From Ariolimax columbianus (lineage: Eukaryota > Mollusca > Gastropoda > Stylommatophora > Arionidae), in contig JAVGWX010000014.1 in NCBI GenBank assembly GCA_036924085.1, positions 36,598,056 through 36,662,055 on the forward strand: DNA of 64,000 nucleotides, in the 5' to 3' direction. A program made the position numbers and the translations under genes. Position 1 is the stretch's first letter. Every line of letters starts with the position of its first letter. The notes under the pieces are model-generated. The model was not told the DNA's origin. It was given only the letters and a program-made list of their open reading frames with translations, and did no database searches. This document shows, piece after piece, positions 37,461 through 64,000 of the stretch.

Positions 37461-37784
37461 TTCTCATATCTATCTGAGCCAGTCATGCCCGACAGGAGGC
37501 CATCTTCAAATGTTAGTGTTTGCCATGTACCTTTTCATTTAATCTTGTTCACCGTTATTGTGTAGACGTTGAACAGATCCGGGGGGGGGGGGGAACGGAG
37601 AACCTTGTGGTAGTCTGGTCATATTGGTCTCGGCTATATTGTCCAAGATCCCAATGAAAATGCAACTTTTCTTTATCAGGGCAGCTGGTATCAGCTCACC
37701 AGCCATGCATTGATTCCAGAGCGCATCAAACAGCATCAATGTCCCAAATCTAAACGGTTGTTTTTAGTGTCTATAATGTTACCT

Positions 37785-38156
37785 TAATACAGTCATACCT
37801 ACCCTCGTACCAACGATCTAAGTACATGTTACCTTAATACAGTCATATCTACCCTCGTACCCCCGATCTAAGTACCTGTTACCTTTATGCAGTCATATCT
37901 ATCCTCATAACCCCGACATCAGTACATGTTTCCTTTATACAGTCATACCTACCCTCATACCCCCGACACCAGTACATGTTACCTTAATACAGTCATATCT
38001 ACCCTCGTACCCCCGATCTAAGTACATGTTACCTTTACGCAGTCATATCTATCCTCATAACCCCGACATCAGTACATGTTTCCTTTATACAGTCATACCT
38101 ACCCTCATACCCCCGACACCAGTACATGTTATCTTAATAGAGTCATATCTACCCTC
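37785..38156. repeat. 50-bp minisatellite, left part, about 7.5 copies
   Basis: CAGTCATACCTACCCTCGTA, then CGATCTAAGTACATGTTACC, recurs every 50 bp. The array stops mid-unit after ATATCTACCCTC at 38145-38156 and resumes at exactly that word at 46501. Confidence 0.95.
38145..38156. other. 12-bp target duplication, left
   Basis: ATATCTACCCTC, identical to 46501-46512 on the other side of the 8344-bp insert. Because the word belongs to a repeat unit, chance identity is more likely than in unique DNA, but both sides are cut at the same unit position. Confidence 0.75.
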
Positions 38157-38783
38157 TAGTTGTCTCGCCGCAGCGACTCAATTTCAACCAGTGTTCGTAA
38201 AGCGATCTCAGTCCCGCCAGGCGGAGCGATAGCGCGGGCTTGCGGAAAACGCTCGCCTGCCTTTCCCCGTAGTGCGAATTGGGTGCGGTTTGTGGTAGTG
38301 GCTCCTCCACCGAGGTGCGCTAGTCTGGTCCGTATCAGGAAACGTGGTCCGTCCGTGGTGATTTATCTAAGGCTTATAGCAGAGCTCGACAGTACGTCTC
38401 GCTGGTGGTCCGACTCTCGCAAAGAGCTTGTGACCGGCAAATGGAAAGCAGGAATCGTTGCCTCGAGGCCCTGCGTTCTCCCTACGGAGAAGGGCAGGCC
38501 AAATTGTGTCTCTAGTCCCAGTGAAATTCGTCGCCGAGGTCGTTGGGATCCGTTCTGCACAGAGCGCTGCCATCCCTCCTCGAGCGAGCCCGGTCGGTCG
38601 GTCGTCTGGTGCGTGTGGGAGGCCCCTGTCAGCAGGCGGTCCTAGGTCGACGGAGTGAGGGACGGGTGGAACAAACCGTCCGTCCCGTCAGTCGGTCCCT
38701 GCGGCCGTCGTCCCAGCGAGGCTTTTTTACACGTAACCCTTCCTCCGCCGACCGGTGTGTGCTGTACGTACGTCTCCGACAGA
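38157..38783 (+). other. probable 5' external transcribed spacer of rDNA
   Basis: GC-rich sequence immediately upstream of the 18S start, with CGGTCGGTCGGTCG-like and GTCCGTCCCGTCAGTCGG-like motifs typical of such spacers. No coding frame is supported. The first 90 bases include AGTCCCGCCAGGC then GCGATAGCGC, which also occur at 42668-42700 inside the LINE 5' coding region, so the extreme left edge may be LINE-related rather than spacer. Confidence 0.6.
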
Positions 38784-39513
38784 TATCTGGTTGATCCTGC
38801 CAGTAGTCATATGCTTGTCTCAAAGATTAAGCCATGCATGTCTAAGTTCACACTGTCTCACGGTGAAACCGCGAATGGCTCATTAAATTAGTCGAGGTTC
38901 CTTAGATGACACGATCCTACTTGGATAACTGTGGCAATTCTAGAGCTAATACATGCTTACCAAGCTCCGACCCTCGCGGAAAGAGCGCTTTTATTAGTTC
39001 AAAACCAATCGTCGTTTCCCCTCGCGGGGTTGCGGAGTCCCCACTGGTGACTCTGGATAACTTTGTGCTGATCGCATGGCCTCATGTGCCGGCGACACAT
39101 CTTTCAAATGTCTGCCCTATCAAATGTCGATGGTACGTGACATGCCTACCATGTTTGTAACGGGTAACGGGGAATCAGGGTTCGATTCCGGAGAGGGAGC
39201 ATGAGAAACGGCTACCACATCCAAGGAAGGCAGCAGGCGCGCAACTTACCCACTCCCGGCACGGGGAGGTAGTGACGAAAAATAACAATACGGGACTCTT
39301 TCGAGGCCCCGTAATTGGAATGAGTACACTTTAAACCCTTTAACGAGGATCTATTGGAGGGCAAGTCTGATGCCAGCAGCCGCGGTAATTCCAGCTCCAA
39401 TAGCGTATATTAAAGTTGTTGCAGTTAAAAAGCTCGTAGTTGGATCTCAGGCGCAGGCGGGCGGTCCGGCTCGCGCCGGTTCACTGCCCGTTGTCTCCTG
39501 CCCTGCCGTCTGC
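38784..39513 (+). rRNA. 18S rRNA, 5' part, pseudogene
   Basis: Starts with TATCTGGTTGATCCTGCCAG (canonical TACCTGGTTGATCCTGCCAG). It continues through CATGCATGTCTAAG, GCGAATGGCTCATTAAAT, AATTCTAGAGCTAATACATG, CACATCCAAGGAAGGCAGCA, GCCAGCAGCCGCGGTAATTC and AAAAGCTCGTAGTTGGATCT. Close to complete for the first 730 nt, with scattered changes, several of them C to T or T to C (for example AAATTAGTCG for AAATCAGTCG). It stops in the V4 expansion region at CCGTCTGC, where a 28S-containing element is inserted. Confidence 0.95.
39506..39513. other. 8-bp direct repeat flanking the 28S element in 18S, left
   Basis: CCGTCTGC occurs here and at 40473-40480; together they bound the interruption of 18S. 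The last three bases also fit the 28S sequence that begins here, so the true duplication may be shorter. Confidence 0.55.
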
Positions 39514-39903
39514 TACGGTAATCCTGCTAATCCCGAGAGAAGCCGCAGACATTTGGTTCACGTACTAGGCGGATAAGCCAACGGTGCAAGGTGAGGGATT
39601 ACGGCCAAACGCCTCTAAGCCAAAAATCCCGCCCAAAAGCAGCCCAGCACGAATGCAAAGGGAGGCTTCGATATGGTGGGGACCTGGGGGCCACGCTCCA
39701 GCCCCGCCCGGTCAAGCCGCAGAATGAGGTCTCTGCCGTCCGCTGATAAAAGCGGGCGGGAAGCTGCTCGATATTCACCCCATACGGCGATGTGGAATGA
39801 AATCATTTGTAGAAGACTTAGTTCTCGGTCGGGTGCCCTAAGCAGTAGATCAGCTACCTCACTGCGAACTGCTGAGACTCAACCCTTGACCACGAGATAT
39901 GTC
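39514..39903 (+). rRNA. 28S rRNA 3' end, copy 1, inside 18S
   Basis: TACGGTAATCCTGCTAATCC then CGAGAGAAGCCGCAGACATT is the sarcin/ricin-loop neighbourhood of 28S (canonical AGTACGAGAGGAACCGCAG). GATTACGG, CGCCTCTAAGCC and ATCCCGCCCA follow, then ATCATTTGTAGAAGAC, GTCGGG and CTACCTCACTGCGAACT, which match the extreme 3' end of animal 28S. The loop itself is altered (AATCCCGAGAGAA), so it is a pseudogene copy. Confidence 0.88.
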
Positions 39904-40472
39904 CGCTCCCTAGGCGGACAACATCTCCGTGCAAGACTAGGCTTGTCACCTGGTCAAATGCACTATTTCGAGAGGAATCACAGGTCGCTGACATTTGGTC
40001 CACGTGCTTGGCTGATAAGCTACCATCTGAGGGATTACGGCCGAACGCCTCTAAGCCAGAATCCCGCCCAAAATCTCAGCGCCGCTGAGATGGGAGGCTA
40101 CGACATGGCTGGGGCTTGTGTCCCGGCCCGATCGAGCCGCAGGAATGCACCTGGTAAAATGCACTCCTTCCTCGCTCTTTGCATCTGTCTGCTATCAGTC
40201 ATTCCAATGGACGCAGAAGATATGCAGTCCAGCGGACATTGCACCTCCTGTCCTATGGTGATAAGCTCCCGGGTGGCGGGGAATGCTAGGCGTACCATCA
40301 CTGCAGATGAGCCGAGAAAATAAAGCGAGCAAAAAGATACCTCACTCATATGCATATGCTACGTTTCTGGCAGGACGTGACGATCCTGGGAAAAAGTCAT
40401 ACTGGACTGCCTCTCTTCCGGGATAGTACAAACTAGTACATAGTCCATCATATCATTACCAAACGCTATATA
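39904..40472 (+). repeat. non-rRNA tail of 28S element copy 1
   Basis: Sequence after the 28S end shared with 42050-42425: TGGACGCAGAAGATATGCAG, GGTGGCGGGGAATGCTAGGC, TGCTACGTTTCTGGCAGG, GTGACGATCCTGGGA, GGACTGCCTCTCTTCCGGG. It ends in TATCAT-rich sequence. A 183-bp 28S fragment is inserted in it at 39965-40147. Confidence 0.85.
39965..40147 (+). rRNA. nested 28S fragment with 18-bp target duplication
   Basis: Begins ATTTCGAGAGGAATCACAGG and contains TGACATTTGGTCCACGTGCT and CGCCTCTAAGCCAGAATCCC, a second copy of the 28S 3' region. Flanks are CACCTGGTCAAATGCACT (39947-39964) and CACCTGGTAAAATGCACT (40148-40165), 17 of 18 identical. The uninterrupted tail is seen in copy 2 near 42090-42110. 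Confidence 0.8.
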
Positions 40473-40480
40473 CCGTCTGC

Positions 40481-40917
40481 CGGCTCTCTCCCACGGGTGC
40501 TCTTCGCTGAGCGTCCTGGGTGGCCGGCGCGTTTACTTTGAAAAAATTAGAGTGTTCAAAGCAGGCCTCGGCTGCCTGAATAATGGTGCATGGAATAATG
40601 GAATAGGACCTCGGTTCTATTTTGTTGGTTTTCGGAACTGGAGGTAATGATTAACAGGGACAAACGGGGGCATTCGTATTGCGGCGTTAGAGGTGAAATT
40701 CTTGGATCGCCGCAAGACGAGCTACTGCGAAAGCATTTGTCAAGAATGTTTTCATTGATCAAGAACGAAAGTCAGAGGCGCAAAGACGATCAGATACCGT
40801 CGTAGTTCTGACCATAAACGATGCCGACTAGCGATCCGCAGGAGTTGCTTCGATGACTCTGCGGGCAGCTTCCGGGAAACCAAAGTGTTTGGGTTCCGGG
40901 GGAAGTATGGTTGCAAA

Positions 40918-40966
<49 letters not shown>

Positions 40967-40990
40967 GCGGCTTAATTTGACTCAACACGG
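40481..40990 (+). rRNA. 18S rRNA, middle part, pseudogene
   Basis: Resumes 18S after the insert: TGGGTGGCCGGCGCGTTTAC, TTAGAGTGTTCAAAGCAGGC, GAGGTGAAATTCTTGGATCG, AAGAACGAAAGTCAGAGG, GATACCGTCGTAGTTCTGAC, GGAATTGACGGAAGGGCACC, CGGCTTAATTTGACTCAACA. It ends at ACACGG at 40990, where true 18S would continue GAAACTCACC; the last 700-800 nt of 18S are missing. Confidence 0.95.
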
Positions 40991-41460
40991 CCAACACTGA
41001 AATGATTGTTATGCCGAGACCACTCTTCTGGGGTCTAATATGGAACTGGTGCTGGACTTAGACCCCCAGAAATCTGGGGTTATGCCCCCTGTGGCTCGGT
41101 TTTGTCTGCATCCAGTGTTTGATAAAGGAATTGACGGAAGAGCACTATCAGGAGTGGAGCCTGAGACCTAAGTTAACTTACCACGCCAATACTGCAGAAT
41201 GACTATCAAAAAGTACACCATCGTGGGGTCTAATAGAGAACATGTGCTGGAATTAGACCCTCGAAAATTTTGGGGCTACCCTCTAAGAAACTTGATTGTC
41301 TCGCTAAGGGAATTGACGGAAGGGCACCACCAGGTGTGGAACCTGCGGCTTAATTTGACTGAACACGCCAATACTGTAGAACGACTGACAAATCGAGAGC
41401 ACTGCCGTTTGGGTCTAATAATGAACGTACGCTGGTATTAGACTCACGGATGACAAGTCA
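40928..41460 (+). repeat. tandem 18S/28S chimeric module, three copies
   Basis: The 18S block beginning AAAGGAATTGACGGAAG (to AATTTGACTCAACACG) occurs at 40928, 41124 and 41305. Each copy is followed by a piece resembling 28S (GGTCTAATAGAGAACATGTG then CTGG and TTAGACC; canonical CTAATAGGGAACGTGAGCTG and TTAGACC). Unit spacing is about 196 and 181 bp. The three copies differ considerably from each other, so the triplication is old. Confidence 0.8.
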
Positions 41461-41554
41461 GCTCTCAAACACTCAAATGAAAGAACGCTACGGAAATCGT
41501 GTTTAACTCCGCAGAAACCGCAGATTTCAAATACCTGGTCATTGACAAACAAAA

Positions 41555-42049
41555 GCCCTCAATAAATTCGTCTGACCAAATAGTGAACGGGTGCTGGAAA
41601 TAGATCATCTGAAGACAGGTCAGTTTTACCCTACAAATGACAGGGCGTTGCTACGGAAAACCAGCTCAAATCGAGAGGAGCCGCAGACACTTTGGTTCAC
41701 GTACCAGGCTGATAAGCCAAGGGCGCGAGGCTACCATGTGGGGGATTACGGCCGAACCCTTGTAAGCCGCAATCCCGCCCAAAATCTCAGCACCACTGCA
41801 ATGGGAGGCTCCTACATGCTCGGGACCTGGGGCTTGCGCCCCAGCCCTATCAGGTAGAGCCACAGTAAGAGGTCCTTGCCGCCCGCCAATCAAAGCGGGC
41901 GGACAACTGCTTGATACTCACCCTATACGGCGATGGGGTGCGAAAAACACCAAAAAAAGACTTAGAACCTGGTCGGGGTGTCGAAAACAGTAGAGCAGCC
42001 ACCTCACTGTGAACTGTCAAGACTCAACCACTGACCATGAGAGTTGTCC
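41555..42049 (+). rRNA. 28S rRNA 3' region, copy 2, pseudogene
   Basis: AGACAGGTCAGTTTTACCCT, GGCGTTGCTACGG, TCGAGAGGAGCCGCAGACAC, GGGGATTACGGCC, AATCCCGCCCA, CCACCTCACTGTGAACTG. It follows 28S order from upstream of the sarcin/ricin loop to the 3' end, with more divergence than the 18S 5' part. Confidence 0.85.
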
Positions 42050-42425
42050 GCACACCAGGCGATCAACATCTCTGTGACATTACCAGGCTTGTCCTCTGGC
42101 TGAATGCACTCCGGCTACGATATCTACCTCTGTACGTTATCAGCCATAACTATCATGCTGGACGCAGAAGAGATGCAGACCAGCGGACATTGCACACCTG
42201 CCCCACTGTGTCAACACCGCAGGTGGCGGGGAATGCTAGGCGTAACATCCCTGCATAGAAGCCAAGAAAATAAAGGGAAAAAGAGATACCCCACTCACAT
42301 GCAAATGCTACGTTTCTGGCAGGGCGTGACGATCCTGGGATACAGACACACCGGACTGCCTCTCTTCCGGGTAAACCAGTCCATCTCATATATCATCACA
42401 TATCATCATTGCACCCTATAGACAC
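42050..42425 (+). repeat. non-rRNA tail of 28S element copy 2
   Basis: Homologous to 39904-40472 without the nested insert (CTGGACGCAGAAGAGATGCA, GGTGGCGGGGAATGCTAGGC, GCTACGTTTCTGGCAGGGCG). It ends in ATATATCATCACATATCATC then ATTGCACCCTATA. The LINE 5' end follows about 60 bp later. It could be the 3' external spacer of rDNA or the 3' tail of a retroposon carrying a 28S head. Confidence 0.8.
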
Positions 42426-42484
42426 GAGTAGTGAAGACTCGATAGTCTGGTAAGACAACTTCCATAAGAGAGAAAACTCTGATC

Positions 42485-45400
42485 GTAAACAACTGCTGCC
42501 TTGCAGATAGGCTGGGGACAGCCAAAGGCTAAGGAGCGCATCCCTACAGAAACGCCTGTTGAAATCGGATGCACGGGGCCGCAAGCCTAACAAAACAGTG
42601 CAACGTAAATCACAGTATGATGGCAGTACAACCTATTAGAAAAACGTATGGCGCTCATCCTGAGGAGTCCCGCCAGGCAGCGATAGCGCCGGGCCCCACG
42701 CCTCGAAGGGGCCCACCCTTGACTACTGGTGGTCACCCACCCATGTGTCGTGGAGTCAAGGCACATGGCTATGGGGCAACGTCTATTGGCCAAAACCTCA
42801 AGACCCTCAAAATACTACAGTGGAATGCGGAGGGAGTCATTAACAAAAAACTTTCCCTAACACACCACCTGCATGAAGGTAAGATTGACGTGGCATGTAT
42901 CCAGGAAACGCACCTCAACAATAACCATAAATTCTCAATCAGAGGATACCAGACCTTCCGTCTAGATAGAGAAGGCCACAAAGGAGGGGTCCTGATACTG
43001 ACCAGAAACAGCATACCGAGTAGCGCGGTACCTGTCAATCACACCGGACAAGCAGAAATTGTAGGAGTTGACATAATGGCTCAAGAGACGAAGCTCCGCA
43101 TTTTCAATCTGTACGGACCACCAAACAGAGACCTATCGCTCTCGAGTACGGAGGTCAGAGACTCCAACTGCATAGTAGTTGGAGATTTCAACAGCCACTC
43201 GGAGAGATGGGGATACTCTGACACAGACAGCAGAGGTGACGAAGTGGAAGATTGGGAGATAGATGCAAATCTCTCCCTAATCAATAGGCCGGAGGATAGC
43301 CCTAGCTTCTATTCAAGAACATGGCATACCACCTCGACTCCAGATTTGGCCTTCTCCACACAGGACATAGACTATAAAATAGACCGCCAGGTGCTAAACC
43401 AACTGGCAGGTAGCGACCACAGGCCGATCAGGCTAACCATTGACATGGAAGTAGGCCCACAGGAAACAAAACCGCTCCCACGTTGGAATTACAAACGAGC
43501 CGACTGGGACAGATTTGCAATCCTGACAGATGGGATGTGTGAAACCATCAACACACGAAACACCAAAATGAAGCCCATGGTAGAGAGCCTAAGCAAGGCA
43601 ATAATGCAAGCCGCCACTGAAACCATCCCAAGAGGAGCTAGGAAAAACTATAAGCCCTACTGGAATGATGAGTTACAGAACGTGGAAGATGCAGTAACAA
43701 ATGCTAGGAACATGGCAGAACGAGAAAAATCCATGGAGGCAAACATCGCCCTCAAAGCCGCCGCGGCGAAGTACAAACACACTCTCAAGCAAACAGCAAG
43801 AGAAAGTTGGAAAAATAAAACGGAAAGTCTAAACCTGGACAAAGAAGGGAACAAGCTATGGAAGCTAGTCAGAGCCATGAATGACGAAACCCCGTCAAAT
43901 AAACAAATTACTATCAAGCAGGGCGAGAACTTGATCACAGGTAAGAAAGCCGCAAACGCCTTTGTCGATCACTATGCCAGAGCAAACCACATCGAGGTCC
44001 CTGCAGATAAGCATACAGACATTAGCGAAGAGCTAAAGGGACACGAAAACATAAATACGGCTCCTGAAGAGCACATGATGGCCAAACTAACAATGCGCGA
44101 AATGGAAGAGGCTATGTGTACACTAAAGAAAAGGAAATCTCCCGGAAAAGACGGGATAACAAACGAAATGCTGATGGGGCTGGGCCAAACAGCGAAGAAA
44201 AAACTACTATCAGTCCTGAACCAAAGCTGGAAAAGGGGTATTGTACCCCAGGCATGGAAAGATGCAATACTGGTACCAGTACCAAAACCAGGAAAGGACA
44301 AAACAGATCCAAATGGATACAGGCCCATAAGCCTACTGAGCTGTGTCGGCAAGCTGATGGAACGGATGATAAACACCAGACTGATGTGGCATCTGGAAGA
44401 AAAACGAATACTAATTCCACAGCAAGCCGGCTTTAGACAGCACAGATCCACTGAGGACCAGATCATCCTCATAGCCCAGGAGATAGAAGATGCCTACCTG
44501 GCACAGAAACACACAGTAGCTGTTTGGGTGGATCTGGAAAAGGCATTTGACAAAGTCTGGAAGGATGGACTTAGAGTCAAGCTAAGAAGAAGTGATGTCT
44601 GTGGGAAGATGTACAAGTGGATCAACCACTACCTCAAACAAAGAACGGCCAGAGTCCAAGTACAAGGGCAGATGAGCAAAAAGGTGACACTCGAGCAGGG
44701 AGTACCCCAAGGGGGAGTATTGTCACCCACACTCTTCCTGGTATATATAAACGATATTACAGAGAATATACCAAGAAGAGTCCATAGCTCAATGTTTGCA
44801 GACGATCTGGCTATGTGGACCTCTGAAAAGAATCTCACCATAGCAAGAAATCGGATGCAGACGGCCCTAACATCGCTGGAAGAGTGGGCGAACTCATGGC
44901 TGGTCAAAATAAACGAGGAGAAAACCACGTGCACAATATTCTCGCTCTCATTAAAACCCCAAAGTACCAAATTAAGCCTAAATGGCAAAATCCTGCAGCC
45001 AAACGACAACCCAACCTATCTGGGAGTCACATTTGATCGGCGCATGACATGGAAAAGTCAGATTGAGAGAAACCGAATGAAAGCCAGAGAAAGAATGGCG
45101 ATCATGAGGAAACTTGCTGGCACAAGCTGGGGGGCAGACGAAGGCATACTAAAGAAACTGTACACTGGAAGAGTGAGACCAGTTCTCGAGTATGGCATTG
45201 CGGCATGGACAACAGCAGCGAAGGCGAACTTCGATAAAGTTAACAAACTTCAAAACCAAGCCATGAGAATTATAACAGGTGGCATGAAGTCAACGCCAAT
45301 TGTAGAACTTGAAAAGATTACAAAACTGCAATCCATGACCGACAGAAGAGACTGCAGAGCCCAGCTGCAGTCAGAGAAACTCCGAAGACTGACGGACCAC

Positions 45401-46500
45401 CCAATGTACCAGAGACTAAACAATTTGGGAACTGGGAAACTAAAGCGGAGAAACTTTGCAGAAATAGCCAAAGCAAAGATGCACGAAGATCCCATAAACG
45501 CACTAACAACACCAAAACCCATCACTACTGTACGAAAACCTACTTGGAGGCAGGATATATTTCCAGAGGTGGTAGAAAATATACCAGGTATTGCAAACAA
45601 AAACTGCCAGACTGAAAAAGAAAGGAGAGACACTACCCTAAGCTTCATAACGAAAAGCTACCCAAGCATGGACTGGACCCATGCATACACCGACGGTTCT
45701 GTAACAAACACTACACAGAACGGAGGGGCAGGAGCATTCCTGAACCTACCAAATGGCAGAAAAATAACACTGTCATTCGCTACTGGTAAGTACACAAGCA
45801 ATTTCAGAGCGGAGGCAGAGGCACTGAGGGCGGCAGTGGAAAAAATGGCAACACACAGTGAAAATAAGAGCCATATAGTCCTGCTGACAGATGCTGTCGC
45901 CGTAGTCACAGCGCTAAAAAGCCAGAAAAACACTGAGCTTAATGACTTAAGAGCAGCACTCTGCAAACTGTGCCAGCTGTCCGCACCAAAAAGGGTAGTG
46001 GTACAGTGGGTTCCGTCACACTGCAACATCCAAGGCAACGAGGAGGCAGACAGACTGGCAAAAGAAGGTGCAAGGCTACCACAAACAGATACCAGTATGA
46101 CGTACGAAGAGTTAAAACGGCTTATCAAAGCCAGGTACATGACCAAATGGGAAACCGAACATACTGGTTACACCAAAAACGATCCCTATTACCAGTTGAA
46201 CCGAAGAGAGCAGGTCGTTGTCTTCAGACTTCGCACTTGCCACAATAGACTGAGGTACCACCTATTCAACAAATTGAAGATAGGGTGTACCGACGAATGC
46301 CCGTGCGGTACTGGTAAAATGACCACTGAACATCTGCTGCAGAACTGCCCGACATACGAGGATCAGAGAGAGCAGATGTGGCCATTGCCAGTGGAACTGC
46401 AAGACAAGCTCTATGGTAGTGGCGAGAGTCTCAGGATGACCGCCGCTTTTTTCGAAAAAATAATGTTACTGTCTGACTGTGTACGCAGAAGAAGAAGAAG
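42485..46500 (+). mobile_element. LINE copy 2, near full length, (GAA)n tail
   Basis: The 5' boundary is placed near 42485 because the related fragment at 33620 starts to align there (AACTGCTGCCTTGCAG, GGCTGGGGACAGCC). The 3' end is GTACGCAGAAGAAGAAGAAG, ending directly at the target duplication. It carries one long frame with no upstream ORF1, suggesting a single-ORF, I/Jockey-like architecture with RNase H. Its high similarity to copy 1 at 26588-30312 indicates recent activity of the family. Confidence 0.9.
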
Positions 46501-46876
46501 ATATCTACCCTCGTACCTCCGATCTAAGTACCTGTTACCTTTATGCAGTCATATATATCCTCATACCCCCGACATTAGTACCTGTTTCCTTTATACAGTC
46601 ATATCTACCTTCATACCTTCAACATCAGTACCTGTTACTTGTTACCTTTATAAGTCAAATCTACCTTCACACCCCCGATATCAGTACTTCTTACCTGTAT
46701 ACAGTTATATCTACAGTCATACGCCCGATATCAGTACCGCTTACCTTTATACAGTCATATCTACTTTCACACTCCCGATATCAGTACCTCTTTCCTTTAT
46801 AGTCATTTCTACCGTCATACCTACGACACCAGTACATGTTACCTTTATACAGTCATACCTACCCTCATATCCCTGA
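42569..46876 (+). CDS. LINE polyprotein: APE endonuclease, reverse transcriptase, RNase H
   Basis: An in-frame TGA at about 42560 precedes this ATG. Domains in order: basic/proline-rich N-terminus (1-80); APE endonuclease (about 85-310: LQWNAEGV, IQETHL, VVGDFNSHSERWGY, GSDHRPI); RT (about 530-800: PISLLSCVGKLMERMI, GFRQHRSTEDQI, DLEKAFDKVW, QGVPQGGVLSPTLF, FADD at 743-746, YLGVTFD); RNase H (about 1035-1165: YTDGS, FRAEAEAL, LTDAVAV, SHCNIQGNEEAD); C-terminal Cys/His motif (CPCG, TTEHLLQNC). All expected catalytic residues are present. The family stop, seen in copy 1, is lost by a one-base deletion near 46465, so about 135 foreign residues from the GAA tail and the minisatellite follow residue 1299. 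Whether the protein still works is unknown. Confidence 0.93.
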   Translation: MHGAASLTKQCNVNHSMMAVQPIRKTYGAHPEESRQAAIAPGPTPRRGPPLTTGGHPPMCRGVKAHGYGATSIGQNLKTLKILQWNAEGVINKKLSLTHHLHEGKIDVACIQETHLNNNHKFSIRGYQTFRLDREGHKGGVLILTRNSIPSSAVPVNHTGQAEIVGVDIMAQETKLRIFNLYGPPNRDLSLSSTEVRDSNCIVVGDFNSHSERWGYSDTDSRGDEVEDWEIDANLSLINRPEDSPSFYSRTWHTTSTPDLAFSTQDIDYKIDRQVLNQLAGSDHRPIRLTIDMEVGPQETKPLPRWNYKRADWDRFAILTDGMCETINTRNTKMKPMVESLSKAIMQAATETIPRGARKNYKPYWNDELQNVEDAVTNARNMAEREKSMEANIALKAAAAKYKHTLKQTARESWKNKTESLNLDKEGNKLWKLVRAMNDETPSNKQITIKQGENLITGKKAANAFVDHYARANHIEVPADKHTDISEELKGHENINTAPEEHMMAKLTMREMEEAMCTLKKRKSPGKDGITNEMLMGLGQTAKKKLLSVLNQSWKRGIVPQAWKDAILVPVPKPGKDKTDPNGYRPISLLSCVGKLMERMINTRLMWHLEEKRILIPQQAGFRQHRSTEDQIILIAQEIEDAYLAQKHTVAVWVDLEKAFDKVWKDGLRVKLRRSDVCGKMYKWINHYLKQRTARVQVQGQMSKKVTLEQGVPQGGVLSPTLFLVYINDITENIPRRVHSSMFADDLAMWTSEKNLTIARNRMQTALTSLEEWANSWLVKINEEKTTCTIFSLSLKPQSTKLSLNGKILQPNDNPTYLGVTFDRRMTWKSQIERNRMKARERMAIMRKLAGTSWGADEGILKKLYTGRVRPVLEYGIAAWTTAAKANFDKVNKLQNQAMRIITGGMKSTPIVELEKITKLQSMTDRRDCRAQLQSEKLRRLTDHPMYQRLNNLGTGKLKRRNFAEIAKAKMHEDPINALTTPKPITTVRKPTWRQDIFPEVVENIPGIANKNCQTEKERRDTTLSFITKSYPSMDWTHAYTDGSVTNTTQNGGAGAFLNLPNGRKITLSFATGKYTSNFRAEAEALRAAVEKMATHSENKSHIVLLTDAVAVVTALKSQKNTELNDLRAALCKLCQLSAPKRVVVQWVPSHCNIQGNEEADRLAKEGARLPQTDTSMTYEELKRLIKARYMTKWETEHTGYTKNDPYYQLNRREQVVVFRLRTCHNRLRYHLFNKLKIGCTDECPCGTGKMTTEHLLQNCPTYEDQREQMWPLPVELQDKLYGSGESLRMTAAFFEKIMLLSDCVRRRRRRYLPSYLRSKYLLPLCSHIYPHTPDISTCFLYTVISTFIPSTSVPVTCYLYKSNLPSHPRYQYFLPVYSYIYSHTPDISTAYLYTVISTFTLPISVPLSFIVISTVIPTTPVHVTFIQSYLPSYP

Positions 46877-46965
46877 CACCAGTACCTGTTACGTTTATAC
46901 AATCATACCTACCATCACACCCCCGACACCAGTACCTATTACCTTTATACTTCACAATCAATGTA
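46501..46965. repeat. 50-bp minisatellite, right part, about 9 copies
   Basis: Same unit as 37785-38156 (GTCATATCTACC, CCCCGA, AGTACCTGTTACCTTTATAC). It resumes at the word where the left part stops, so the two parts were one array before the 8.3-kb insertion. Confidence 0.95.
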
Positions 46966-53460: not shown

Positions 53461-56400
53461 GTTTTCAATGGCTTGATTGTGGGATTGTTATGGGAGTGGG
53501 AGGTGGAGAGTGGGAGTGAGAGGTGGAGGTAGTGGGAGTGAGAGGTGGAGGTAGTGGGAGTGAGAGGTGGAGGTAGTGGGATGTGGACAGTGGGAGTGAG
53601 AGGGAGAGGTAGTGGGAGTTAGAGGTGGAGGTAGTGGGAGTGAGAGGTAGAGGTAGTGGGAGTGAGAGGTGGAGGTAGTGGGAGTGAGAGGTGGAGGTAG
53701 TGGGAGTGAGAGGTGGAGGTAGTGAGAGTGAGAGGTGGAGGTAGGGGGAGTGAGAGGTGGAGGTAGTGGGATGTGGACAGTGGGAGTGAGAATGGGAGGT
53801 AGTGGGAGTTAGAGGTGGAGGTAGTGGGAGTGGGATGTGGAGAGTGGGAGTGAGAGGTGGAGGTAGTGGGAGTGAGAGTTGGAGGTAGTGAGAGTGAGGG
53901 GTGGAGGTAGTGGGAGTGAATGGTGCAGGAAGTGGGAGTGAGAGATGGAGGTAGTGAGAGGTGGAGGTAGTGGTAGTGAGAGGTGGAGGTAGTGTTTTCA
54001 ATGGCTTGATTGTGGGATTGTTATGGGAGTGGGAGGTGGAGAGTGGGAGTGAGAGGTGGAGGTAGTGGGAGTGAGAGGTGGAGGTAGTGGGAGTGAGAGG
54101 TGGAGGTAGTGGGAGTGAGAGGTGGAGGTAGTGAGAGGTGGAGGTAGTGAGAGGTGGAGGTAGTGGGAGTGAGAGGTGGAGGTAGTGGGAGTGAGAGGTG
54201 GAGGTAGTGAGAGGTGGAGGTAGTGGGAGTGAGAGGTGGAGGTAGTGAGAGGTGGAGGAAATGGGAGTGAAAGGTGCAGGTAGTGAGAGGTGGACGGAGT
54301 GGGAGTGAGAGGTGGAGGTAGTGGGAGTGAGAGGTGGAGGTAGTGGGAGTGAGAGGTGGAGGTAGTGGGAGTGAGAGGTGGAGGTAGTGGGAGTGAGAGA
54401 TGGAGGCAGTGAGAGGTGGAGGTCGTGGTAGTGAGAGGTGGAGATAAAGGGAGTGAGAGGTGGAGGTAGTGGGAGTGAGAGGTGGAGGTAGTGGGAGTGA
54501 GAGGTGGAGGTAGTGGGAGTGAGAGGTGGAGGTAGTGAGAGTGAGAGGTGGAGGTAGTGGGAGTGAGAGGTGGAGGTAGTGGGATGTGGACAGTGGGAGT
54601 GAGAGGGGGAGGTAGTGGGAGTTAGAGGTGGAGGTAGTGGGAGTGGGATGTGGAGAGTGGGAGTGAGAGGTGGAGGTAGTGGGAGTGAGAGTTGGAGGTA
54701 GTGAGAGTGAGGGGTGGAGGTAGTGGGAGTGAATGGTGCAGGAAGTGGGAGTGAGAGATGGAGGTAGTGAGAGGTGGAGGTAGTGGTAGTGAGAGGTGGA
54801 GGTAGTGAGAGGTGGAGGTAGTGAGAGGTGGAGGTAGTGGGAAGAAGAGATGGAGCTAGTGGGAGTGAGTGGTGGAGGTAGTGGGAGTGAGAGGTGGAGG
54901 TAGTGAGAGGTGGAGGTAGTGGGAGTGAGAGGTGGAGGTAGAGGGAGTGAGAGGTGGAGGTAGTGAGAGGTGCAGGTAGTGGGAGTGAGAGGTGGAGGTA
55001 GTGGGAGTGAGAGGTGGAGGTAGTGGGAGTGAGAGGTGGAGGAATTGGGAGTGAGAGGTGGAGGTAGTGAGAGGTGGAGGTAGTGGGATGAGAGGTGGAG
55101 ATAGGGGGAGTGAGAGGTGGAGGTAGTGAGAGGTGGAGATAGTGAGATGTGGAAGTAGTGGGAGTGAGAGGTGGAGGTAGTGGGAGTGAGAGGTGGAGGT
55201 AGTGGGAGTGAGAGGTGCAGGTAGTGGAAGTGAGAGATGGAGTGAGTGAGAGGTGGAGGTAGTGGTAGTGAGATGGAGATTATGGGAGTGAGAGGTGGAG
55301 GTAGTGGGAGTGAGAGGTGGAGGTAGTGGGAGTGAGAGGTGCAGGTAGTGGGAGTGAGAGATGAAGGGAGTGAGAGGTGGAGGTAGTGGGAGTGAGAGGA
55401 GGAGAGAGTGGGAGTGAGAGGTGGAGGTAGTGAGAGGTGGAGGTAGTGAGAGGTGGAGGTAGTGGAAATGAGAGGTGGAGGTAGTGGGAGTGAGAGGTAG
55501 AGGTAGTGGGAGTGAGAGGTGGAGGTAGTGGGAGTGAGAGGTGGAGGTAGTGAGAGTGAGAGGTGGAGGTAGTGAGAGGTGGAGGTAGTGGGAGTGAGAG
55601 ATGGAGGTAGTGAGAGGTGGAAGTAGTGGTAGTGAGAGGTGGAGGTAGTGAGAGTGAGAGGTGGAGGTATTGGGAGTGAGAGGTGGAGGTAGTGAGAGGT
55701 GGAGGTAGTGGGAGTGAGAGGTGGAGGTTGTGGGAGTGAGAGGTGCAGGTAGTGGGAGTGAGAGATGAAGGGAGTGAGAGGTGGAGGTAGTGGGAGTGAG
55801 AGGAGGAGATAGTGGGAGTGAAAGGTGGAGGTAGTGAGAGGTGGAGGTAGTGAGAGGTGGAGGTAGTGGAAGTGAGAGGTGGAGGTAGTGGGAGTGAGAG
55901 GTGGAGGTAGTGGGAGTGAGAGGTGGAGGTAGTGGGAGTGAGAGGTGGAGGTAGTGAGAGGTGGAGGTAGTGGGAGTGAGAGATGGAGGTAGTGAGAGGT
56001 GGAAGTAGTGAGAGGTGGAGGTAGTGAGAGGTAAAGGTAGTGGTAGTGAGAGGTGGAGGTAGTGGGAGTGAGAGGTGGAGGTAGTGAGAGGTGGAGGTAG
56101 TGGGAGTGAGAGATGGAGGTAGTGAGAGGTGGAAGTAGTGGTAGTGAGAGGTGGAGGTAGTGAGAGTGAGAGGTGGAGGTATTGGGAGTTAGAGGTGGAG
56201 GTAGTGAGAGGTGGAGGTAGTGGCAGTGAGAGGTGGAGGTAGTGGGAGTGAGAGGTGGAGGTAGTGAGAGGTGGAGGCAGTGAGAGGTGGAGGTAGTGGG
56301 AATGAGAGGTGGAGGTAGTGGGAGTGAGAGGAGGAGGTAGTGGGAGTGAGAGGTGGAGGTAGTGAGAGGTGGAGGTAGTGGGAGTGAGAGGTGGAGGTAG

Positions 56401-59400
56401 AGGGAGTGAGAGGTGGAGGTAGTGAGAGGTGGAGGTAGTGGGAGTGAGAGGTGGAGGTAGTGGGAGTGAGAGGTGGAGGTAGTGGGAGTGAGAGGTGGAG
56501 GTAGTGGGAGGGAGAGGTGGAGGTAGTGAGATATGGAGGTAGTGGGAGTGAGAGGTGGAGGTAGTGGGAGTGAGAGGTGGAGATAGTGGGAGTAAGAGGT
56601 GCAGGTAGTGGGAGTGAGAGTTGGAGGGAGTGAGAGGTGGAGATAGTGGTAGTGAGAGGTGGAAATAGTGGGAGTGAGAGGAGGAGGTAGTGGGAGTGAG
56701 AGGTAGAGGTAGTGGGAGTTAGAGGTGGAGATAGTGGGAGTGAGAGGTGGAGGTAGTGGGAGTGAGAGGTGCAGGTAGTGAGAGTGAGAGATGGAGGGAG
56801 TGAGAGGTGGAGGTAGTGGGAGTGAGAGGTGGAGGTAGTGAGAGGTGGAGGTAATGGGAGTGAGAGGTGGAGGTAGGGAGAGGTGGAGGTAGTGAGAGGT
56901 GGAGGTAGTGGGAGTGAGAGGTAGAGGTATTGGGAGTGAGAGGTGGAGGTAGTGAGAGGTGGAGGTAGTGGGAGTGAGAAGGGGAGGTAGTGGGAGTGAG
57001 AGGTGGAGGTAGTGGGAGTGAGAGGTGGAGGTAGTGGGATGAGAGGTGGAGATAGTGGGAGTCAGCGGTGGAGGTATTGAGAGGTGGAGGTAGTGGGAGT
57101 GAGAGGTGGAGGTAGAGGGAGTGAGAGGTGGAGGTAGTGAGAGGTGCAGGTAGTGGGAGTGAGAGGTAGTGAGAGGTGGAGGTAGTGGGAGTGAGAGGTG
57201 GAGGTAGTGAGAGGTGGAGGTATTGAGAGGTGGAGGTAGTGGGAGTGAGAGGTGGAGGTAGAGGGAGTGAGAGGTGGAGGAAGTGAGAGGTGGAGGTAGT
57301 GGGAGTGTGAGGTGGAGGTAGTGGGAGTGAGAGGTGGAAATAGTGGGAGTGAGAGGTGGAGGTAGTGGGAGTGAGAGGTGGAGGTAGTGAGAGGTGGAGG
57401 TAGTGGGAGTGAGAGTTGGAGGTAGAGGGAGTGAGAGGTGGAGGTAGTGGGAGTGAGAGGTGGAGGTAGTGGGAGTGAGAGATGGAGGCAGTGAGAGGTG
57501 GAGGTCGTGGTAGTGAGAGGTGGAGATAGTGGGAGTGAGAGGTGGAGGTACTGGGAGTGAAAGGTGGAGGTAGTGGGAGTGAGAGGTGGAGGTAGTGGAA
57601 GTGAGAGGTGGAGGTAGGGGGAGTGAGAGGTGGAGGTAGTGGGAGTGAGAGGTGGAGGTAGTGGGAGTGAGAGGTGGAGGTAGTGGGAGTGAGAGGTGGA
57701 GGTAGTGAGAGTGAGAGGTGGAGGTTGTGAGAGGTGGAGGTAGTGGGAGTGAGAGGTGGAGGTAGAGGGAGTGAAAGGTGGAGGTAGTGAGAGGTGGAGG
57801 TAGTGGAGGTAGTAAAGGTAGTGGAGGTAGTGGGAGTGAGAGGTGGCGGTAGTGGGAGTGAGAGGTGGAAGTAGTGGGAGTGAGAGGTGGAGGTTGTTAG
57901 AGGTGGAGGTAGTGAGAGGTGGAGGTAGTGGGAGTGAGAGGTTCAGGTAGTGGGAGTGAGAGGTGGAGGTAGTGGGAGTGAGAGGTGCAGGTAGTGGGAG
58001 TGAGAGATGGAAGGAGTGAGAGGTAGAGATAGTGGTAGTGAGAGGTGGAGATAGTAGGAGTGAGAGGAGGAGGTAGTGGGAGTGAGAGGTGGAGGTAGTG
58101 GGAGTGAGAGGTGCAGGTAGTGGGAATGACAGATGGAGGGAGTGAGAGGTGGAGGTAGTGGGAGTGAGAGGTGGAGATAGTGGGAGTGAGAGGTGGAGGT
58201 AGTGAGAGGTGGAGGTAGTGAGAGGTGGAGGTAGTGAGAGGTGGAGGTAGTGGGAGTGAGAGGTGGAGGTAGTGAGAGGTGGAGGTAGTGGGAGTGAGAG
58301 GTGGAGGTAGTGAGAGGTGGAGGAAATGGGAGTGAAAGGTGCAGGTAGTGAGAGGTGGAGGGAGTGGGAGTGAGAGGTGGAGGTAGTGGGAGTGAGAGGT
58401 GGAGGTAGTGGGAGTGAGAGGTGGAGGTAGTGGGAGTGAGAGGTGGAGGTAGTGGGAGTGAGAGATGGAGGCAGTGAGAGGTGGAGGTCGTGGTAGTGAG
58501 AGGTGGAGATAAAGGGAGTGAGAGGTGGAGATAGTGGGAGTGAGAGGTGGAGGTAGTGGGAGTGAGAGGTGGAGGTAGTGGGAGTGAGAGGTGGAGGTAG
58601 TGGGAGTGAGAGGTGGAGGTAGTGAGAGTGAGAGATGGAGGGAGTGAGAGGTGGAGGTAGTGGGAGTGAGAGGTGGAGAAAGTGGGAGTTAGAGGTTGAG
58701 GTAGTGAGAGGTGGAGGTAGTGAGAGGTGGAGGTAGTGGGAGTGAGAGGTGGAGGTAGTGGGAGTGAGAGGTGGAGGTAGTGGGAGTGAGAGGTGGAGGT
58801 AGTGATAGTGAGAGATGGAGGTAGTGAGAGGCTGAGGTAGTGGGATTGAGAGGTGGAGATAGTGGGAGTGAGAGGTGGAGATAGTGAGAAGTGGAGGTAG
58901 TGAGAGGTGTAGGTAGTGGGAGTGAGAGGTGGAGGTAGTGGGAGTGAGAGGTGGAGGTAGTGGGAGTGAGAGGTGGAGGTAGTGGGAGTGAGAGGTGCAG
59001 GTAGTGGGAGTGAGAGGTGGAGGTAGTGGGAGTGAGAGGTGGAGGTAGTGGGAGTGAGAGGTGGAGGTAGTGGGAGTGAGGGGTGGAGGTAGTGGGAGTG
59101 AGAGGTGCAGGTAGTGTGAGTGAGATGTGGAGGTAGTGGGAGTGAGAGGTGGAGGTAGTCGGAGTGAGGGCTGGAGGTAGTGGGAGTGAGAGTGGAGGTA
59201 GTGGGAGTGAGAGGTGGAGGTAGTGGGAGTGAGAGGTGCAGGTAGTGGGAGTGATAGATGGAGGGAGTGAGAGGTGGAGGTAGTGGGAGTGAGAAGTGGA
59301 GATAGTGGGAGTGAGAGGTGGAGATAGTAAGAGGTGGAGGTAGTGGGAGTAAGAGATGGAGGTAGTGAGAGGTGGAGGTAGTGGGAGCGGGAGGTGGAGA

Positions 59401-62400
59401 GTGGGAGAGGTGGAGGTAGTGGGAGTGAGAGGTGGAGGTAGTGGGAGTGAGAAATGGAGGGATTGAGAGGTTGAGGTAGTGGGAGTGAGAAGTGTAGGTA
59501 GTGGGAGTGAGAGGTGGAGGTAGTGGGAGTGAGAGGTGGAGGTAGTAGGGGTGAGAGGTGCAGGTAGTGGGAGTGAGAGATGGAGGGAGTGAGAGGTGGA
59601 GGTAGTGGGAGTGAGAGGTGGAGGTAGTGGGAGTGAGAGGTGGAGGTAGTGGGAGTGAGAGGTAGAGGTAGTGGGAGTGGGAGGTGGAGGTAGTGGGAGT
59701 GAGAAGTGGAGGTAGTAAAAGGTGGAGGTAGTGGGAGTGCGAGGTGGAGAGTGGGAGTGAGAGGTGGAGGCAGTGGGAGTGAGAGGCAGAGGTTGTTGGA
59801 GTGAGAGGTGGAAGTAGGGGGAGTTAGAGGTGGAGGTAGTGGGAGTGAGAGGTGGAGGTAGTTGGAGTTAGAGGTGGAGGTAGTGGGAGTGAGAGATGGA
59901 GGTAGTGGGAGTGGGAGGTCGAGAGCGGGAGTGGGAGGTGGAGGTATAGGGAGTGAGAGATGGAGGGAGTGAGAGGTGGAGGAAGTGGGAGTGAGTGGTG
60001 GAGGTAGTGGGAGTGAGAGGTGGAGGTAGTGAGAGTGGGAGATAGAGGGAGTGAGATGTGGAGGTAGTGGGAGTGAGAAGTGGAGGTAGTGGGAGTGAGA
60101 GATGGAGGGATTGAGAGGTGGAGGTAGTGGGAGTGAGAGATGGAGGGAGTGAGAGGTGGAGGTAGTGGGAGTGGGAGGTGGAGTGTGGGAGTGAGAGGTT
60201 AAGGTAGTCGGAGTGAGAGGTGGAGGTAGTGGGAGTGAGAGGTGGAGGTAGTGGGGGTGAGAGGTGGAGTTAGTGGGAGTGGGAGGTCGAGAGTGGGAGT
60301 GGGAGGTGGAGGTAGTGGGAGTGAGAGATGGAGGGAGTGAGAGGTGGAGGTAGTGGGAGTGAGAGGTGGATGTAGTGGGAGTGAGAGGTGGAGGTAGTGA
60401 GAGTGGGAGATAGAGGGAGTGAGAGGTGGAGGTAGTGGGAGTGAGAGGTGTAGAGTGGAAGTGAGAGGTGGAGGTAGTGATAGGTGGAGGTAGTGGGAGT
60501 GGGAGGTGGATATTGGGAGTGAGAGGTGGAGGTAGTGGGAGTGAGAGGTGGAGGTAGTGAGAGGTGGAGGTAATGGGAGTGAGAGGTGGAGAGTGGGAGT
60601 GAGAGGTGGAGGTACTGGGAGTGAGAGGTGAAGGTAGTTAGAGGTGGAGGTAGTGGGAGTGGAAGGTGGAGGTAGTGGGAGTGAGAGGTGGAGGTAGTGG
60701 GAGTGAGAGGTGGAGGTAGTGAAAGGTGGAGGTTGTGGGAGTGCGAGGTGGAGAGTGGGAGTGAGAGGTGGAGGTAGTCGGAGTGAAAGGCAGAGGTTTT
60801 TGGAGTGAGAGGTGGAGGTGGTGGGAGTGAGAGGTGGAGGTAGAGGGAGTGAGAGGTGGAGGTAGTGAGAGGTGGAGGTAGTGGAGGTAGTAAAGGTAGT
60901 GGAGGTAGTGGGAGTGAGAGGTGGCGGTAGTGGGAGTGAGAGGTGGAAGTAGTGGGAGTGAGAGGTGGAGGTTGTTAGAGGTGGAGGTAGTGAGAGGTGG
61001 AGGTAGTGGGAGTGAGAGGTTCAGGTAGTGGGAGTGAGAGGTGGAGGTAGTGGGAGTGAGAGGTGCAGGTAGTGGGAGTGAGAGATGGAAGGAGTGAGAG
61101 GTAGAGATAGTGGTAGTGAGAGGTGGAGATAGTAGGAGTGAGAGGAGGAGGTAGTGGGAGTGAGAGGTGGAGGTAGTGGGAGTGAGAGGTGCAGGTAGTG
61201 GGAATGACAGATGGAGGGAGTGAGAGGTGGAGGTAGTGGGAGTGAGAGGTGGAGATAGTGGGAGTGAGAGGTGGAGGTAGTGAGAGGTGGAGGTAGTGAG
61301 AGGTGGAGGTAGTGGGAGTGAGAGGTGGAGGTAGTGGGAGTGAGAGGTGGAGGTAGTGAGAGGTGGAGGTAGTGGGAGTGAGAGGTGGAGGTAGTGAGAG
61401 GTGGAGGAAATGGGAGTGAAAGGTGCAGGTAGTGAGAGGTGGAGGGAGTGGGAGTGAGAGGTGGAGGTAGTGGGAGTGAGAGGTGGAGGTAGTGGGAGTG
61501 AGAGGTGGAGGTAGTGGGAGTGAGAGGTGGAGGTAGTGGGAGTGAGAGATGGAGGCAGTGAGAGGTGGAGGTCGTGGTAGTGAGAGGTGGAGATAAAGGG
61601 AGTGAGAGGTGGAGGTAGTGGGAGTGAGAGGTGGAGGTAGTGGGAGTGAGAGGTGGAGGTAGTGGGAGTGAGAGGTGGAGGTAGTGGGAGTGAGAGGTGG
61701 GGGTAGTGGGAGTGAGAGGTGGAGGTAGTGAGAGTGAGAGATGGAGGGAGTGAGAGGTGGAGGTAGTGGGAGTGAGAGGTGGAGAAAGTGGGAGTTAGAG
61801 GTTGAGGTAGTGAGAGGTGGAGGTAGTGAGAGGTGGAGGTAGTGGGAGTGAGAGGTGGAGGTAGTGGGAGTGAGAGGTGGAGGTAGTGGGAGTGAGAGGT
61901 GGAGGTAGTGATAGTGAGAGATGGAGGTAGTGAGAGGTGGAGGTAGTGGGATTGAGAGGTGGAGATAGTGGGAGTGAGAGGTGGAGGTAGTGGGAGTGAA
62001 AGGCAGAGGTTTTTGGATTGAGAGGTGGAGGTGGTGGTAGTGAGAGGTGGAGGTAGTGGGAGTGAGAGGTGGAGGTCGTGGGAGTGAGAGGTGGAGGTAG
62101 TGGGAGTGAGAGGTGGAGGTAATGAGAGTGGGAGATAGAGGGAGTCAGAGGTGGAGGTAGTGGGAGTGAGAGGAGGAGGTAGCGGGAGTGAGAGATGGAG
62201 GGAGTGAGAGGTGGAGGTAGTGGGAGTGAGAGATGTAGGGAGTGAGAGGTGGAGGTAGTGGGAGTGGGAGGTGGAGAGTGGGAGCGAGAGGTGGAGGTAG
62301 TGGGAGTGAGAGGTGGAGGTATTAAGAGTGGGAGATAGAGGGAGTCAGAGGTGGAGGTAGGGGAAGTGAGAGGAGGAGGTAGCGGGAGTGAGAGATGGAG

Positions 62401-64000
62401 GGAGTGAGAGGTGGAGGTAGTGGGAGTGAGAGATGGAGGGAGTGAGAGGTGGAGGTAGTGGGAGTGGGAGGTGGAGAGTGGGAGTGAGAGGTGGAGGTAG
62501 TGGGAGTGAGAAATGGACGGAGTGAGAGGTGGAGGTAGTGGGAGTGAGAGGTGGAGGTAGTGGGAGTGAGAGGTGGAGGTAGTGAGAGGTGGATGTAGCG
62601 GGAGTTAGAGGTGGAGGTAGTGGGAGTGGAGATGGAGAGTGGAAGTGAGAGGTGGAGGTAGTGGGAGTGAGAGGTGGAGGTAGTGGGAGTGAGAGGTGGA
62701 GTTAGTGGGAGTGAGACGTGGATTTAGTGGGAGTGAGAGGTGGAGGTAGTGGGAGTGGGAGATGGAGAGTGGGAGTGGGAGGTGGAGAGTGGAAGTGAGA
62801 GGTGGAGGTAGTGGGAGTGAGAGGTGGAGGTAGTGGGAGTGAGAGGTGGAGGTAGTGGGAGTGAGAGGTGGAGGTAGTGGGAGTGAGAGGTGGAGGTAGG
62901 TGGAGTGAGAGGTGGAGGTAGTGGGAGTGAGAGGTGGAGGTAGTGTGAGTGGAGATGGAGAGTGGAAGTGAGAGGTGGAGGTAGTGGGAGTGAGAGGTGG
63001 AGGTAGTGGGAGTGAGAGGTGGAGGTAGTGGGAGTGAGAGGTGGAGGTAGTGGGAGTGGAAGGTGGAGAGTGGGAGTGGCAAGTAGAGAGTGGAAGTGAG
63101 AGGTAGAGGTAGTTGGAGTGAGAGGTGGACGTAGTGGGAGTGAGAGGTGGAGGTAGTGGGAGTGAGACGTGGATTTAGTGGGAGTGAGAGGTGGAGGTAG
63201 TGGGAGTGGGAGATGGAGAGTGGGAGTGGGAGGTGGAGAGTGGAAGTGAGAGGTGGAGGTAGTGGGAGTGAGAGGTGGAGGTAGTGGGAGTGAGACGTGG
63301 AGGTAGTGGGAGTGAGAGGTGGAGGTAGTGGGAGTGGGAGATGGAGAGTGGGAGTGAGAAGTTGAGGGAGTGAGAGGCTGAGCTAATGGGATTGCGATGT
63401 GGAGGTAGTGGGAGTGAGAGTTGGAGCTGATGTGTGAGTAAGAGGTGATGTGTGGATCTGAGGTGGAGGTGATGTGTGACTGAGAGGTGGAGGTGATGTG
63501 TGAGTGAGATGTGATAAATGAGTGAGAGGTGGAGGTGATGTGAGTGAGAGGTTGAAGTGATGTGAGTGAGAGGTGGAGGTGATGTGAGTGAGAGGTGGAG
63601 GTGATGTGTGAGTGAAAGGTGGAGGTGATGTGTGAGTGAGAGATGGAGGTGATGTGTGAGTAAGAGGTGGAAGTGATGTGAGTGAGAGGTGGAGGTGATG
63701 TGTGAGTGAGAGGTGGAGGTGATGTGTGAGTGAGAGGTGGAGGTGATGTGTGAGTGAGAGGTGAAGGTGATGTGTAAGTGAGAGGTGGAGGTGATGTGTG
63801 AGTGAGAGGTTATATATGAGTGAGAGGTGATATATGAGTGAGAGGTGGAGGTGATGTGTGAGTGAGAGGTGGAGGTAATGTGTAAGTGAGAGGTGGAGGT
63901 GATGTGTGAGTGAGAGGTGGAGGTGATGTGTGAGTGAGAGGTGGAGGTGATGTGTGAGTGAGAGGTGGAGGTGATGTGTGAGTTAGAGGTCGAGGTGATT
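53461..64000. repeat. purine-rich satellite, 22/16-bp units, over 10.5 kb, runs off the window
   Basis: Long unit GGAGGTAGTGGGAGTGAGAG plus GT (22 bp) alternates with a short form lacking six bases (GGAGGTAGTGAGAGGT, 16 bp). Nearly all bases of the plus strand are G, A or T, giving strong strand asymmetry. Higher-order structure is visible: about 57790-58880 is repeated at about 60868-61985, offset 3078 to 3106 bp, and a 54240-54460 segment recurs in both. The left boundary word GTTTTCAATGGCTTGATTGT occurs at 53461 and 53994. From about 63430 the unit changes to 24 bp (GGAGGTGATGTGTGAGTGAG plus AGGT). Minus-strand frames are artefacts. Confidence 0.95.

Follow-up and report, generated by a model that had tools for sequence, protein, structure and literature searches.

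Non-long terminal repeat (non-LTR) retrotransposons and the transcripts of RNA polymerase I (Pol I) are linked by the R elements, that is, R2, R1, and the R elements that target 18S ribosomal RNA (rRNA) genes. A different association is seen in the RNA/LINE-1 chimeras (U6/L1, 5S/L1, and 28S/L1), in which a structural RNA has been joined to the 5′ side of a long interspersed nuclear element (LINE) in one insertion (PMC13174262). In that report, U6 and 28S are mostly in the sense orientation and 5S is typically antisense, and the 27 chimeras with 5S and the 18 with 28S (median rRNA segment 269 nt) are each single events (PMC13174262). Short interspersed nuclear elements (SINEs) with rRNA parts are also known, among them the 5S-headed SINE3 and MeloSINE, which has a 28S 3′ end (PMC7245038). 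Here we describe a composite of precursor rRNA (pre-rRNA) and LINE sequence in a 64-kb stretch of the genome of the slug Ariolimax columbianus, hereafter the window (C14:36598056-36662055, where C14 is contig JAVGWX010000014.1). Positions refer to the whole window unless a contig or locus is named, and the genome searched was the 2.29-Gb assembly.

The slug composite resembles the RNA/LINE-1 chimeras in that a structural RNA is fused 5′ of a LINE. However, whereas those chimeras are reported as single events, the slug family has a fixed fusion that involves 1.87 kb of pre-rRNA and is present in thousands of junction copies. Unlike the R elements, the slug copies are dispersed and carry rRNA inside the element. 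A site-specific R element of the ribosomal DNA (rDNA), which would occupy one rDNA site, was considered and rejected, as the 20 loci fetched all lie outside rDNA according to their place and to visual inspection of 50-nt flanks (rDNA-resident copies elsewhere are possible). The slug family has a non-autonomous partner, subfamily B, which is of the same sort as the rRNA-part SINEs, namely an rRNA-derived non-coding element moved by LINE machinery. It differs from the SINEs named above in its length of 2.5-3.5 kb, in its pre-rRNA start, in having the 5′ external transcribed spacer (5′ETS) and 18S rather than 5S, and in having an autonomous sister with the same head. No rRNA-headed LINE family was found described in the literature searched, in which coverage of subscription papers was limited; one further source, PMC13370334, is unrelated. 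Judged from sequence, the apparent novelty is a LINE family headed by present-day pre-rRNA from what would be the Pol I start onward, which has a non-autonomous partner and shows signs that heads were exchanged.

An abundant composite LINE family

In the window, a 50-bp minisatellite (37776-38156 and 46501-46950) is interrupted by an 8.34-kb block at 38157-46500, and the same word, ATATCTACCCTC, stands at both edges (38145-38156 and 46501-46512, + strand) as a 12-nt duplication. All parts of the block are on the + strand. Rfam matches 18S over 38787-40898 with 898.6 bits and the 28S 3′ sequence over 41642-42045 with 74 bits, and it detects an additional 28S-like piece inside the window 18S. 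The LINE open frame and 3′ end occupy 42569-46487, and a (GAA)n tail (46488-46500) adjoins position 46501. According to Pfam, a single open frame starting at 42569 encodes an APE endonuclease (~42815-43432), a reverse transcriptase (RT; ~44282-45034), and an RNase H (~45683-46072), and the matches to RVT_1 (7.5e-39) and Exo_endo_phos_2 (7.5e-18) fall in one protein. The sequence relatives of this protein in PDB are L1 ORF2p, which is the best, and R2. It shares the arrangement of APE endonuclease and RT with LINE-1 ORF2p-type proteins and differs from them in having RNase H in addition. With an RT and an APE-like endonuclease, target duplications, and a simple 3′ tail, the block is an APE-type non-LTR retrotransposon, that is, a LINE. 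The open stretch extends over at least 1304 aa in 7 of 15 copies (the window copy and the 14 essentially whole sisters described below). Upstream of the open reading frame (ORF) only short frames (105 aa or less) are found, within the rRNA relic, and no ORF1-homology search was made.

We consider it likely, with a probability of about 0.83, that the block arose by retrotransposition as one copy of a composite LINE family already established in this genome. A query with the head (38157-40157) gave 41 rows, representing the best 40 of 4788 first-look candidates, and these correspond to 39 loci besides the window (L033 accounts for two of the rows); 20 of these loci were fetched together with their flanks. 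Head and LINE are essentially complete in 14 of the 20 (L030 lacks ~190 nt of the relic), three more (L024, L037, and L040) have both with larger internal deletions, two (L021 and L034) have no LINE ORF, and one (L033) is rearranged. The majority sequence of the 14 whole copies is 7386 nt long; these copies are 98.70-99.66% identical to it, and the window copy is 99.47% identical over 7377 nt. The composite is an established and abundant LINE family with a full length of ~7.39 kb. As a separate observation, the rearranged locus (L033:5926-8460) contains two heads in opposite orientation that are joined within 18S, without a LINE.

Pattern searches allowing at most two mismatches, the counts of which take in truncated and non-autonomous copies, place the 18S|relic junction at 6216 sites in the genome and the relic|LINE junction at 5617 (controls 0 for both). 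The first 100 places were listed for each junction, all of them on contig C1. Of 100 exact 18S|relic junctions in the initial 47.4 Mb of C1, 39 are followed downstream on their own strand by an exact relic|LINE junction, at a spacing of 1590-1628 nt in 38 pairs and of 2272 nt in one. Provided that this part of C1 is typical, both joints would be exact at ~1900 loci genome-wide.

The ends of the copies are also consistent. The start ATCTGGGG is present in 17 of 21 loci examined; in L025 it is altered, L022 and the window copy are truncated at this end (the latter lacks these first 8 nt of the family), and L033 is the rearranged locus. Target duplications of 9-14 nt, within 3 nt of the ends, were found in 18 of 20 scored loci including the window; in the 17 of 19 scored sister loci that have them, each has its own sequence (L033 was left out of the scoring). 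Since ATATCTACCCTC also recurs within the minisatellite, the 12-nt duplication is ambiguous at the window locus alone, and the sister loci carry the target-duplication argument. We propose that a composite RNA was inserted by target-primed reverse transcription. In most full-length sisters the copied RNA runs from a fixed pre-rRNA point through the 5′ETS, 18S nt 1-1237, the relic, and the LINE ORF to (GAA)n.

A preliminary description of the window had reported a minisatellite cut at the same word on both sides by a block with rRNA and a LINE on the + strand and (GAA)n at its right edge, all of which is confirmed, and its attribution of the insertion to LINE machinery agrees with the tail and the target duplications. 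The idea, also raised there, that the composite is an established element and not a one-off is strongly supported by the junction counts and the 14 of 20 whole sister loci, and several copies do share the rRNA/LINE junction. In contrast, the 4.3-kb front is not all modern rRNA: this makes up ~1.87 kb in the family, and the rest of the front represents a ~965-nt insertion and the ~1.6-kb relic. Nor is a fusion of rRNA to the LINE at the window locus supported; the window copy received the order 18S|relic|LINE from its family, and the extra ~965 nt are the one part special to this locus.

The pre-rRNA head and the relic behind it

A genuine rDNA unit, L043, was located via the 18S 3′ end, which occurs at 37 places, two of which are on C222 and 12,287 nt apart. 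Family nt 1-1875 consist of the 5′ETS and 18S nt 1-1237 and are 98.6% identical to L043:757-2631 in an alignment with 20 gap positions and 7 mismatches, one of which falls in the 18S part. Outside gap columns, the 14 copies are 99.1-99.9% identical to L043 in 18S nt 1-1237 and 97.3-98.9% identical in the 5′ETS. In the window, the 5′ETS occupies 38157-38783 (from alignment to L043 and the sister 5′ ends). The 5′ part of 18S follows at 38784-39513, as far as V4 (Rfam RF01960 and rDNA alignment), and 18S continues at 40471-40990 (rDNA alignment), from V4 to ...AACACGG, where the final modern rRNA base lies.

The rDNA upstream of the family start point reads ...GGAATGTATATT, and 601 nt around the rDNA start (357 before and 244 after) are identical in 40 of 40 scored array places (C50, C67, and C86). 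This upstream rDNA sequence is absent in front of the fetched copies. From the position of the start in rDNA and the lack of the conserved upstream rDNA in the copies we infer that the family begins at the Pol I start, without the promoter. Among the 40 scored rDNA promoter places (21 on C50, 15 on C67, and 4 on C86), four, all on C50, have an 18S 3′-end match at the expected distance; gaps are possible (L044 reads N), and no conclusion is drawn from this number. Some rDNA promoters lie 4-6 kb farther apart than one 12.3-kb unit, a pattern that inserted elements would produce.

Four differences from L043 (24 G>A, 531 C>A, a 3-nt insertion at 564, and 1543 A>G) are common to every autonomous copy with letters there, which favors a single capture followed by spread; several further differences vary among copies. 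The joint AACACGG|CC is common to the sampled copies that keep it. The CpG observed/expected ratio reaches 1.07 for the head, against 0.63 for the relic and 0.59 for the LINE, and this contrast, together with the divergence of the older 18S pieces, suggests that the head joined later than the relic and the LINE. We hypothesize that the head was captured once and recently and that the family expanded afterwards. Capture could have taken either of two routes, which would yield identical joints. The RT may have switched templates from the relic's own 18S piece onto pre-rRNA, in which case the 18S shared by relic and rRNA would provide a natural crossing place and reading to the end of the RNA would give the observed start. 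Alternatively, a relic/LINE copy may have resided within an 18S gene and been read through by Pol I.

Between the head and the LINE, ~1.6 kb of decayed rRNA-derived relic form part of the element. In the window copy the relic consists of tandem units with decayed 18S pieces (40991-41641; unit starts near 40927, 41123, and 41305), followed by a decayed 28S 3′ end and then spacer-like sequence (41642-42611), 74-80% like subfamily B. Over 71 nt, identity to rDNA is 82% and 90% for the 18S pieces of the two older units. Sequence preceding relic unit 2 is similar to the family 5′ end (none of 500 plain shuffles scores as well), and sequence preceding unit 3 shows no such similarity (167 of 500 shuffles score as well). 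These features raise the suggestion that the relic may represent stacked old heads.

The spacer that the preliminary description had called pre-rRNA is specifically the 5′ETS, with 99.0% identity to L043 outside 20 gap columns. The view that the rRNA modules are older than the LINE fits the decayed 28S and 18S repeat units but not the 5′ETS-18S head, which is near-identical to present rDNA and not CpG-depleted. The proposed RNA from a Pol I promoter is retained insofar as the family 5′ end appears to be where a Pol I transcript would start.

Some features of the 5′ regions stand by themselves. An Rfam search (E up to 10) of the family 5′ end and the LINE leader gave only weak matches under the family cut-offs (E 4.8; 1.8 and 4.1). 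Of 200 shuffles, 119 fold as well as the first 104 nt, which show no advantage, and 14 as well as the LINE leader, which has a slight one. The motif AGTCCCGCCAGGC(GG)AGCGATAGCGC occurs both in the LINE leader (majority sequence 3551; window 42669-42697) and in the 5′ETS (window 38213-38240; genuine rDNA L043:818-846).

Subfamily B and the extra piece of the window copy

Subfamily B is represented by L021 (2542 nt) and L034 (3532 nt), which have the same 5′ start as the autonomous family and contain the 5′ETS, 18S, and their own 28S/spacer part, with (GAA)n at the end. Neither has a tblastn match to the LINE ORF. L021 has a target duplication of 14 nt. The autonomous family and subfamily B differ by 20-27% in the 28S/spacer part, and the subfamily B head derives from the Pol I unit. 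Given an rRNA-derived head, a LINE-like tail, and no LINE ORF, subfamily B appears to be an rRNA-headed SINE. In L034 the head and first relic units are 95-99% like the autonomous family but the remainder is only 75-80% alike, a pattern suggestive of head exchange between the autonomous family and subfamily B. Directly before the subfamily B insertion at this locus lies an inverted piece of the autonomous element (L034:1-1474), as in twin priming or second template use.

The window copy differs from its sisters by the extra ~965 nt at 18S V4 (39511-40473, + strand), a 28S 3′-end/spacer-like sequence that is ~97% like the B type of L021 and L034. CCGTCTG stands at both edges of this piece, and the junction peculiar to the window copy reads CGCTATATACCGTCTGCCGG. 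The 18S sites 1222 and 1357 (the left edge) of the window copy match L021 alone among the 20 aligned copies, and the window 5′ETS matches the autonomous family. The simplest account, based on few sites, would be a double template switch in first-strand synthesis: the RT would have left the autonomous RNA in 18S V4, copied an L021-type subfamily B RNA, and returned to a family-type 5′ETS. L021 lies 71 kb from the window copy on the same strand. Conversion of the window copy from L021 was considered and is improbable, since homology at the right edge is limited to a few bases.

Transcription, rival accounts, and significance

In its widest form, our proposal is that this LINE family lives off Pol I. 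Copies linked to rDNA promoters would be transcribed in the nucleolus with native 5′ETS-18S leaders, promoterless 7.4-kb composites would retrotranspose genome-wide, and heads would be exchanged with pre-rRNA SINEs and pre-rRNA by template switching in the shared 18S. We regard this as possible but doubtful as a whole. Because the fetched dispersed copies have no upstream promoter, Pol I at rDNA-linked copies may supply much of the element RNA, a step of which we are less sure. The family-type 5′ETS preceded by 7 nt of promoter is found exactly at eight places, five of which are in tandem on C86 (12.5-12.6 kb apart) and the others on C236, at C5:86646539, and at C13:24609058, and with one mismatch at two more. 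C86 also carries ordinary rDNA promoters. For the C5 and C13 places, none of the 37 listed 18S 3′ ends lies 2.4 kb downstream, so that these may represent composites with a promoter, partial orphons of rDNA, or 7-nt matches that arose by chance.

A serious contender, which we place somewhat short of even odds, is an internal promoter (Pol II or a downstream Pol I element) that would drive the copies, the pre-rRNA start being merely a historical 5′ end. LINEs commonly have internal promoters, and the fetched copies have no rDNA upstream sequence and yet keep a fixed 5′ end at 17 of 21 loci. However, no internal promoter was identified, although no search was made for one, and the family-type 5′ETS with promoter sequence persists in the tandem array on C86, such that Pol I supply is possible.

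Several points weigh against the account of an established family with a captured Pol I head. First, in the 47.4 Mb of C1 an exact relic|LINE junction is missing downstream of 61 of the 100 exact 18S|relic junctions, and an exact 18S|relic junction is missing upstream of 33 of the 72 exact relic|LINE junctions, which implies that many copies are non-autonomous, truncated, or mutated. No target duplication was found for L034 and L040. The 20 loci were picked by head similarity, which biases completeness and head identity upward, and head divergence between copies indeed increases beyond the queried part. The base-by-base comparison of the head was made with one rDNA unit, L043, the proposed Pol I start is argued from position and sequence, and a Pol I-transcribed source copy was not seen. 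Lastly, the mosaic structure of the window copy rests on two shared sites and the B segment, and L021 site 1302 is not common to the window.

An unlikely alternative is that the head is renewed at each insertion, with a headless or short-headed LINE RNA as template and the RT jumping in the 18S relic onto native pre-rRNA. This would fit a head that is nearer to today's rDNA than the relic, that differs less between copies than the LINE, and whose CpG is undepleted. Against it, the sampled copies share the joint AACACGG|CC where they keep it, and all autonomous copies with letters there have at least four differences from L043 in common (24 G>A occurs in rDNA-like tandem units as well). The way in which the loci were selected explains at least part of the low head divergence, as this rises past the queried part. 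Far less probable is a one-off chimera, in which read-through or serial template jumping fused LINE and rRNA in a single insertion. Among the places scored (best 40 of 4788), the V4 piece is indeed present in the window and L021 only, but rRNA/LINE junctions at thousands of places and the same architecture in 14 of 20 fetched loci refute a one-off origin for the composite; such an origin remains likely for the extra ~965 nt. The least credible explanation is an assembly artefact in which rDNA reads were misjoined to LINE copies, for although rDNA is prone to misassembly and one rDNA stretch, L044, reads N, the same joint recurs at 6216 places (100 listed, all on C1) and target duplications are found at 17 of 19 scored sister loci.

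Two further features lie outside this argument. The window is rich in minisatellites at 4486-25605 and 53491-64000 (Tandem Repeats Finder, 62 rows over the whole window), including a 5.1-kb array at 9969-15094 and a ~10.5-kb array that reaches the window end. In addition, the top-scoring 5.8S loci were tried as pointers to rDNA and rejected, as two of them are not rDNA units and look like another dispersed family. These two, L041 (C5:86037900-86041700) and L042 (C4:128058700-128062760), have a common 5′ end in sequence like internal transcribed spacer 1, GGTACCTGAGCGTCC..., followed by 5.8S, with no 18S upstream, and 5.8S matches occur on many chromosomes (40 scored). They likely represent a second dispersed rRNA-derived family.

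The 5′ ends of LINEs change over time, and the capture of a new 5′ region is seldom visible. In this family the donor (present rDNA), the joint, an older relic, and an apparent further exchange (the window copy) can be read together, and the dependence of a LINE on Pol I becomes testable. For the slug itself, near-native 18S and 5′ETS copies across the chromosomes would interfere with counts of rDNA copies, with 18S barcoding based on genomic reads, and with pre-rRNA RNA-seq.

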